Positions 56,875 to 57,971 of a stretch of DNA of 64,000 nt are shown here, piece after piece. The first letter of the stretch is position 1. Each line of letters starts with the position of its first letter. The stretch covers positions 3,642,001-3,706,000 of the forward strand of contig NZ_CP099399.1 in assembly GCF_024721175.1 (NCBI RefSeq). The letters are read 5' to 3'. The position numbers were made by a program, and so were the translations under genes. Origin of the DNA: Rhizobium sp. Pop5. GTDB lineage: Bacteria > Pseudomonadota > Alphaproteobacteria > Rhizobiales > Rhizobiaceae. The notes under the pieces were generated by a model. That model was not told the DNA's origin. It did not search any database and worked only from the letters and a program-made list of their open reading frames with translations.

Positions 56875-57339
56875 CTAGCTTTCGGCCTGGAGGAGCCGCG
56901 CCCCCGGCCCTTCCTTGCCGAGCCGGTCGCCGGGATTGCGCAGCGGACAGCTCTCGACCGACAGGCAGCCACAGCCGATGCAGCCGGTCAGGCGGTCGCG
57001 CAACAGGCTAAGCTGCCTGATTCGCTCATCGAGATCGTCCTTCCAAAGGCCCGACAGGATCTGCCAGTCGATAGCCGTCGGCGTGCGTCCCTGCGGCAGG
57101 GATTCGAACGCCGCCTGGATCTCCGAAAGCGGAATGCCGACCCGCTGCGCCACCTTGATGATGCCAAGCCGGCGAAGCACGTCACGCCCGTAACGACGCT
57201 GGTTGCCGCGGCTGCGAATGCTGGAGATCAGCCCCTTGGTTTCGTAAAAATGCAGCGCCGAAACGGCAAGGCCGCTACGCTCCGCCACTTCGCCGACCGT
57301 CAGGAGCTTGCCAAGCGCGGTTGTCGGAATCCTATCCAT
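56875..57339 (-). CDS. soxR: Redox-sensitive transcriptional activator SoxR
   Basis: A 154-residue MerR-family protein. N-terminal winged helix ([26 protein letters not shown]), a dimer coiled coil, and the [2Fe-2S] cysteines C120, C123, C125 and C131 (CIGCGC...C), spaced as in E. coli SoxR. The cluster is oxidised by superoxide-generating or redox-cycling compounds. There is no soxS in the window; in non-enteric bacteria SoxR acts directly on target promoters. A perfect SoxR box lies 11 bases upstream in the divergent promoter. Confidence 0.95.
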
Positions 57340-57345
57340 TGCCCC

Positions 57346-57376
57346 TTGACCTCAATATTAGTTGAGGTTTTATAAG
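57346..57376 (+). promoter_or_regulatory. SoxR-type promoter reading away from soxR
   Basis: TTGACC (57346-57351), 19-base spacer and TATAAG (57371-57376). The overlong 19-bp spacer is the mark of MerR-family activated promoters. The spacer holds CCTCAATATTAGTTGAGG (57350-57367), with perfect six-base arms and very close to the E. coli SoxR box. Transcription should start near 57383 and run to the right, into the short ORF at 57423. Confidence 0.85.
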
Positions 57377-57422
57377 CCTTGCTCCATCAGTCGTAAAGCC
57401 CAATCGCGCGAAGGAGCGACGC

Positions 57423-57512
57423 ATGAAAACACGTCTGGATGACGGCGAGGCCGGACGGCCTGCGCTCGTCATTGCTCGCGTCAATCGTCTCGATGCTGAG
57501 ATGGCCGCCTGA
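57423..57512 (+). CDS. 29-residue ORF downstream of the SoxR promoter
   Basis: MKTRLDDGEAGRPALVIARV followed by nine residues ending EMAA. GGAG lies eight bases before the ATG, and the reading frame is the first after the SoxR-type promoter, about 40 bases from the predicted transcript start. The RNA ends in an intrinsic terminator 75 bases after the stop. It is soluble and charged, with no run of one amino acid as in amino-acid attenuators. It could be a regulatory leader peptide, a small stress protein, or part of a small RNA. I recognise no homologue. Confidence 0.5.
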   Translation: MKTRLDDGEAGRPALVIARVNRLDAEMAA

Positions 57513-57525
57513 GGCGGAAGGCTCC

Positions 57526-57552
57526 GGTTCCGTTCCCGGCAGGTACGGAACC
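57526..57552 (+). ncRNA. Hairpin between the small ORF and the terminator
   Basis: GGTTCCGT / ACGGAACC, eight perfect pairs with an 11-base loop, 13 bases past the small-ORF stop and eight bases before the terminator stem. Its loop contains CCCGG, which can also pair with the terminator's left arm. Confidence 0.6.
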
Positions 57553-57559
57553 CTGGGAG

Positions 57560-57590
57560 CACCCGGGCAGGCCGTCCGCCCGGGTGTTTT
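57560..57590 (+). terminator. Intrinsic terminator of the SoxR-driven transcript
   Basis: CACCCGGGC / GCCCGGGTG, nine perfect pairs with a nine-base loop and four Ts. Bases 57567-57578 (loop and part of the stem) are a perfect complement of 57452-57463 inside the small ORF, so an alternative fold that would disrupt the terminator exists. Confidence 0.8.
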
Positions 57591-57614
57591 CCCATCTCTC
57601 AGCACATCCCACCA

Positions 57615-57630
57615 TGCGGACATGTCCGCA
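57615..57630. promoter_or_regulatory. 16-base perfect palindrome upstream of the thi promoter
   Basis: TGCGGACATGTCCGCA, a perfect 16-base palindrome followed by ATTTT, ten bases before the proposed -35 of the thiamin operon. It may be an operator or a short hairpin. No known binding protein is recognised. Confidence 0.45.
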
Positions 57631-57668: not shown

Positions 57669-57679
57669 CCGGGCCGATT

Positions 57680-57773
57680 AACAGGGGAGCTCCGTGTCGC
57701 CGGGGCTGAGATGCGAGGCACGAGCTTCCGGACCCTTCAAAGCTGATCTGGGTAATGCCAGCGGAGCGAGGTC
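57680..57773 (+). promoter_or_regulatory. TPP riboswitch (THI element)
   Basis: The conserved blocks are all present in order: GGGGCTGAGATGC, then ACCCTTCAA, GCTGATCTGGGTAATGCCAGCGGAG. These form the pyrimidine- and pyrophosphate-sensing helices of the thiamin pyrophosphate riboswitch. It ends four bases before an ATG, with the GAGG ribosome-binding site at its 3' edge, consistent with translational repression by TPP. Confidence 0.95.
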
Positions 57774-57776
57774 CAC

Positions 57777-57971
57777 ATGTTTTCAGGCGCACAAGTGTCA
57801 CTCTATCCGATGTCCGGCAATTTCGTCGGCTTCGTCCTCGATGCCGTAAAGGCGCTCGATCCCTTCTTTGCCGCTATACGTACCGGCACCTCTGACCGCT
57901 CCAGGAATTTCTGCACCACGCTGGGTGGCGACGCCGGCGCCGTCTTCGCCAACGGCCCGACGAAAGCCTGA
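57777..57971 (+). pseudogene. Truncated YkoF-type HMP/thiamin-binding protein
   Basis: A 64-residue frame directly behind the TPP riboswitch. The first 30 residues (FSGAQVSLYPMSGNFVGFVL and on to KALDPF) match the N-terminal end of YkoF-type thiamin or hydroxymethylpyrimidine binding proteins, which are usually about 200 residues. From about residue 33 the similarity stops and the frame ends early. It appears to be the remnant of a full ykoF gene, as found at the head of related thi operons. Whether the short product has a role, or only keeps translation running into the permease gene 12 bases on, is unknown. Confidence 0.6.

Follow-up and report, generated by a model that had tools for sequence, protein, structure and literature searches.

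A SoxR-type promoter in Rhizobium that probably drives a regulatory RNA derived from the 3' UTR of a flavin reductase mRNA

OxyS is a stress RNA of E. coli and enteric bacteria and is said, in an account attributed to Krieger et al. 2022, to have evolved from the mRNA of a peroxidase. Other bacterial small RNAs (sRNAs) are reportedly derived from the 3' UTRs of mRNAs, with Hoyos 2020 and Miyakoshi 2015 as references, and in A. tumefaciens both soxR itself and a target gene are reportedly under soxR control. The OxyS RNA is described in PMC11975290 as adjoining oxyR, and the SoxR regulon of S. coelicolor is given in PMC4146615 as six genes, coding for enzymes and a pump. Among the open-licence papers searched, none with a SoxR-regulated small RNA was found.

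The window analysed here (the whole stretch of 64,000 nucleotides from Rhizobium sp. Pop5) carries soxR, coding for a redox-sensing MerR-family activator, on the minus strand (56875..57339; TIGR01950, 224 bits with a cut-off of 116.9) and, divergent from it, a short unit for which a preliminary description had offered three options: a stress peptide, a small regulatory RNA or a leader. Of these, the comparisons below best support the regulatory RNA and speak against the other two. The unit begins with a SoxR-type promoter (57346..57376, plus strand, read from the sequence), in which the -35 element TTGACC (57346-57351) and the -10 element TATAAG (57371-57376) are separated by an overlong spacer of 19 bp (57352-57370) with a SoxR box (CCTCAATATTAGTTGAGG, 57350..57367) centred within it, as in SoxR-regulated promoters and in agreement with the perfect box in a 19-bp spacer promoter described earlier. 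A genome-wide pattern scan found one perfect box in the 6.74-Mb genome, the window copy, and 11 other sites with one mismatch; since this copy is the sole perfect one and the pattern has 12 places in all versus 5 for a reversed control pattern, the box is not a chance occurrence. A second SoxR-type promoter is present in the same genome (L276, 1495-1882; G000:C2 near 2678882), comprising TTGACC, a one-mismatch box, a 19-bp spacer and TATCAA, with a 106-aa protein containing an antibiotic-biosynthesis-monooxygenase (ABM) domain beginning 43 bp past the box. On the minus strand of the window, TTTACG (57397-57392), 17 bp and TATAAA (57374-57369) form a probable soxR promoter (57369..57397), assigned by its sequence, which overlaps the box. 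As the box has probably been kept under selection for soxR autoregulation too, conservation of the promoter alone is weak proof.

A transcript of about 210 nt is predicted from the promoter and the terminator (57383..57592, plus strand), starting about 7 nt past the -10 element and ending at an intrinsic terminator (57555..57592, plus strand) recognized by sequence, folding and comparison of loci, with its stem within 57555-57591 and TTTT at 57587-57590; the terminator-bounded unit of roughly 210 bases noticed earlier is borne out. The terminator stem folds by itself, and a folding energy of -42.9 kcal/mol (z = -3.7) was obtained for the stretch 57518-57592. A generic promoter and terminator scan listed neither the SoxR promoter nor the terminator of the unit because its rules accept spacers of 16-18 bp and loops of 3-8. 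The terminator loop (ACCUCC, similar to an anti-SD sequence) was considered as the active part of the RNA and set aside, its sequence being variable (GCCGUCC in the window), and conservation of the terminator can be explained by shielding of the thi unit that follows. This neighbouring unit includes a TPP riboswitch (57673..57786, plus strand; RF00059, 57.4 bits), 80 bp past the end of the SoxR unit and in the same direction, followed by an ABC transporter (permease, ATPase and NMT1/THI5-like binding protein) that would fit transport of a thiamine precursor. The two units had rightly been described as distinct, and the terminator lies between them. In the window, ykoF (PF07615, 57777-57971) has been shortened to 64 codons by an internal deletion; the short form occurs in several other loci and the two-domain form is kept in L031, L032, L034 and others, a distribution that does not follow the reductase loss described below.

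The 29-codon ORF with a good ribosome-binding site that had been noted is present (57423..57512, plus strand; ATG at 57423, AAGGAG 6 nt upstream of it), and comparison with relatives identifies it as the fused start and tail of a lost reductase gene. When relatives were searched with the DNA, the matches were split by extra sequence of about 490 bp (G026) or about 590 bp (G011), and both genomes encode a protein of about 191 aa behind the same promoter. This protein is an NADPH-dependent FMN reductase (PF03358, 129.9 bits for the L050 copy; NCBIfam matches to ArsH and SsuE stay under their cut-offs), an oxidoreductase consistent with the SoxR outputs that the preliminary description had listed. 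Alignment with the reductase loci showed that the window retains the reductase ribosome-binding site, the ATG and the first codons, up to 57431, as well as the last codons to the stop; the ribosome-binding site and first three codons (ATGAAAACA, 57411..57431, plus strand) have identical bases in L057 and L050. The distance from promoter to hairpin is 180 in the window versus 666 in L050 and L057, indicating a deletion of about 490 bp. At the window locus no intact PF03358 coding sequence is present, start and tail alone being left, and the window's genome (G000) lacks an orthologue of the reductase, the nearest paralogue being 38% identical. Compensation by this other reductase was considered and rejected, as the carriers G026 and G011 also have a 39% one. 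The 29-codon frame is shared by the window and its sister species L031 only, with 12 of the 29 residues differing, so that the codon-level conservation suggested earlier as a check was not found; its dN/dS is 0.71 (0.235/0.330; a rough value over 29 codons), whereas soxR and thiX in this pair have values of 0.10 and 0.16. At the old reductase start of L039 lies another remnant ORF, which has 28 codons and differs from that of the window.

One hundred loci were fetched from the 127 of 148 genus genomes with a SoxR match, making 101 with the window; genomes outside these 100 loci were searched with the RNA model only. The reductase is encoded directly behind the same promoter in 64 of the 101 loci (broken in one, L088), 29 loci, window included, have no reductase but carry the box, TTGACC and the hairpin, and 8 have neither reductase nor hairpin. 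In some loci (L066, L048) nothing but the promoter, a short leader, the hairpin and the terminator is left, and stretches of 99 nt and 109 nt there, which take in most of the predicted RNA, have folding energies lower than those of shuffled sequences (z -3.8 and -3.0). Lacking an intact ORF and lying divergent from an activator gene, the ORF-less units thus have the arrangement of an OxyS-like sRNA. Old reductase tail codons can still be recognized in several other ORF-less loci, L066 and L108 contain no remnant, and 16 of the 29 have no ORF of at least 8 codons. In 26 of the 29, all except L061, L062 and L108, the hairpin is followed by a stem of at least 11 pairs with at least three T at its end (an automatic tally that takes only T beyond the stem gives 3). 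In L088 (G098, 538-1052 of the oriented locus) the reductase is split into two pieces that lie in different frames, part of the gene is missing and the hairpin is intact; from its sequence, this locus looks like a reductase loss in progress.

TTGACC is present in all 29 ORF-less hairpin loci, in 61 of the 64 reductase loci (the other three are those that gave no box under the pattern used) and in none of the 8 loci with neither; the corresponding counts for CGTAAAG, an element of the soxR promoter, are 26 of 29, 60 of 64 and 0 of 8. These 8 loci (L087, L092, L095, L097, L102, L103, L106 and L107) form one clade with a SoxR box before soxR, no reductase or hairpin and an altered upstream region, and they are no clean control for the RNA, because the forward promoter and the soxR element both differ there. 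G034 is a better single case of a promoter kept without soxR: the gene is absent beside the box and its -35 element has decayed (CGTAAAG to CATTAAG), and the box, the forward TTGACC, TATAAC and the hairpin are all intact, another SoxR, 62% identical, being encoded elsewhere in the genome. At this locus (L125, G034:C29, box at 616 of the oriented locus) a short-chain dehydrogenase frame adjoins the promoter in place of soxR.

The hairpin (GGUUCCGU-UCCCGGCAGGU-ACGGAACC, 57526..57552, plus strand; model match 56.9 bits, single copy) follows the ORF in the window, as had been noticed, and occurs in all 93 loci of the first two classes (L099 by eye, the other 92 by the covariance model at E <= 0.001). 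It sits behind the reductase stop in the 64 reductase loci, of which the model recognized 63 at that threshold, L099 being the remaining one. Together with the intrinsic terminator at the end of the unit in the window and, in clear form, in 26 of the 29 ORF-less loci, this placement in a 3' UTR is that of a 3' UTR-derived sRNA. Pairs were counted in 60 of about 75 distinct hairpins, with 14 omitted as near-copies or (L062 and L104) despite having one stem base fewer, and L099 omitted for its shifted hairpin, omissions that slightly favour structure. Of the 480 cells of the 8-pair core stem, 96.7% are paired and 61 are changed on both sides, a number that none of 500 shuffles reached (18.5, sd 3.0) and that slid alignments, with no more than 28, did not approach; 26 are G-U, as expected for an RNA stem rather than a DNA palindrome. 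A 12-pair version of the stem gave 98 double-changed cells, compared with 38.9 for shuffled sequences and no more than 50 for slid alignments. Covariation hence exceeds both shuffled and slid controls, as expected for a conserved RNA structure, with the qualification that the shuffles ignore relatedness among the 60 hairpins. Stricter measures were weaker, with 6 pairs varying on both sides versus a shuffled mean of 4.2 (reached in 14 of 500) and 14 further pair types (reached in 12 of 500). Within the loop, which contains GGCAGG, the bases C and GCAGG are invariant in the 60 sequences.

A single match to the covariance model was found in each of 110 of the 148 genus genomes, which rules out a repeat element, and 109 of the 110 matches lie 60-812 bp from soxR, so that the conserved synteny with soxR proposed earlier as a check holds in the relatives for the hairpin RNA. 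The tally of distances took in 123 genomes with SoxR, leaving aside 4 with a SoxR of only about 50% identity; the 13 without a match are the 8 RNA-less ones, G016 (L099) and 4 with a SoxR of only 61-63% identity. A search of 247 family genomes, at least 4 of which belong to the genus, gave five weak matches outside it (E 0.0017-0.0086), and the stretches fetched for these contained no match to SoxR or the reductase; judged by these model searches, both run with strict filters that can miss weak matches, the RNA appears confined to one genus. No Rfam family matches 57330-57620 at E <= 1, so that no homology to a known sRNA family was found at this threshold. The loop complement ACCTGCC was considered as a guide to targets and occurs in the window too often to be informative; L276 contains none. 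One genome of the survey, G009, is presumably that of R. etli CFN42. If G009 is indeed the strain concerned, none of the 18 R. etli RNA regions (heat, salt) in Table 1 of PMC4167512 lies near G009:C2:4094454.

On a soxR plus thiX tree of 66 loci the reductase state changes 9 times (bootstraps 8-9; 6 changes forced by well-supported branches). A soxR-only tree of 100 loci gave 7 changes of the RNA-only label (5 forced) and 8 for the three states together, with the 8 loci lacking both reductase and RNA falling into one clade. Changes on a tree alone cannot tell loss from gain; that they were losses is suggested by the remnants in the window, L031 and L039 and by reductase tail codons surviving in several other loci. 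Once the ORF is gone, no part of the locus is more constrained than the hairpin (gaps counted as differences, L076 dropped as a near-copy, at most 25 random pairs per set). In one clade, with 13 ORF-less loci, the mean identities are 97.6% for the hairpin, 98.8% for its loop, 93.7% for the promoter and 90.8% for the terminator, versus 79.4% for the spacer, 66.2% for the scar and 82.8% for third positions of thiX. A second ORF-less clade of 5 loci gave 100% for the hairpin, 46% for the scar, 66% for the spacer and 85.5% for thiX third positions, and for the pair of window and L031 the values are 100%, 78.5%, 76.7% and 76.7%, the scar in this pair being no less similar than the spacer. In two sets of reductase loci the hairpin is 98.8% and 92.0% identical.

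Could the unit be a non-functional relic, in which the reductase was lost, the box serves soxR autoregulation, the terminator shields the thi unit and the hairpin is a passenger? The probable soxR promoter overlapping the box, the decaying remnant ORF (dN/dS about 0.7) and the clade of 8 that dropped reductase and hairpin alike would all agree with this. We nevertheless consider it unlikely, as the hairpin stays 97.6-100% identical while scar and spacer fall to 46-79%, its stem covaries around a nearly invariant loop, and it was retained in every one of the 29 ORF-less loci examined beyond that clade, at loci without thi matches and in G034, where soxR is gone. Scarcely different in probability, and if anything a shade lower, is a cis-acting 3' module that stabilises the transcript 3' end or aids termination and has no target in trans. 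The position of the hairpin just before the terminator and its presence in the 64 reductase loci are what would be expected of a 3' UTR stabiliser, but where the ORF is missing, as in L066 and L048, there is nothing to stabilise, the terminator stem folds without the hairpin, and stability does not require a conserved GGCAGG loop.

The two remaining options of the preliminary description fare far worse. That the 29-codon ORF is a SoxR-induced stress peptide seems highly improbable: the good ribosome-binding site and the ATG, which together with the retention of the frame in L031 are the points in its favour, belong to the lost reductase, the frame is otherwise found nowhere but in the window and differs from that of L031 in 12 of its 29 residues, and more than half of the ORF-less loci (16 of 29) lack any ORF of at least 8 codons there. 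Equally little probability attaches to a role as leader or attenuator for the thi transport operon that follows. The short distance to the TPP riboswitch and the common direction would suit such a role, but a terminator intervenes, and the hairpin is also present at loci with no ykoF or thiX match in the fetched 2.7 kb (e.g. L078-L084 and L109-L123).

We therefore favour, with reasonable though far from complete confidence, a SoxR-activated RNA gene derived from the 3' UTR of a reductase mRNA and acting most likely in trans. Ancestrally, the SoxR promoter divergent from soxR would have transcribed the NADPH-dependent FMN reductase, with a 3' UTR containing a structured RNA, namely the hairpin with its GGCAGG loop followed by the terminator. 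The coding sequence would then have been deleted in the window species and many relatives, with promoter, short leader, hairpin and terminator remaining. Redox-cycling compounds would oxidise SoxR and thereby switch on the RNA, which would end at its own terminator and exert its effect by way of the conserved loop of the hairpin, most likely in trans by pairing with mRNAs or binding a protein. Transcription and redox induction of the predicted RNA are what promoter, box and terminator lead us to expect, and trans action is suggested by its persistence without the ORF and by the conserved loop. The chances are about even for a wider reading, in which the SoxR-controlled RNA is a counterpart of OxyS for redox cyclers that originated in the 3' UTR of the mRNA for a flavin reductase, with the coding part discarded in about 5-9 lineages and the RNA and promoter kept (one 8-locus clade lost both reductase and RNA); these independent losses would reflect that the RNA is the more constrained product.

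If true, SoxR would gain an RNA output, which is without precedent in the open-licence literature searched, and the genus would offer several recent, parallel cases in which an mRNA became a stand-alone regulatory RNA, and with them a natural series of transitions from mRNA to sRNA. As sister species with and without the reductase display the states before and after the change, the origin of stress sRNAs would become directly testable.

Compared with the known systems, the locus resembles OxyS in that a short predicted RNA lies beside the gene of a redox-sensing activator and the enzyme coding sequence is gone. It differs in that the activator is SoxR and not OxyR and the enzyme a flavin reductase and not a peroxidase, in that no sequence relation was found, and in that the states before and after and several parallel changes are visible within one genus; the likeness is one of analogy only. 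With the 3' UTR-derived sRNAs of bacteria it shares a structured 3' UTR ending in an intrinsic terminator, which could be released from the mRNA, whereas the Rhizobium element exists both as a 3' UTR and as a stand-alone unit in one genus. Redox enzymes under SoxR control, as in the S. coelicolor regulon, are matched by the reductase of the relatives, a PF03358 family member that supplied both ends of the remnant ORF and has no orthologue in the window's genome, and by the ABM-domain protein at the second site of that genome; unlike in S. coelicolor, the soxR-linked output of the window species contains no intact protein gene.
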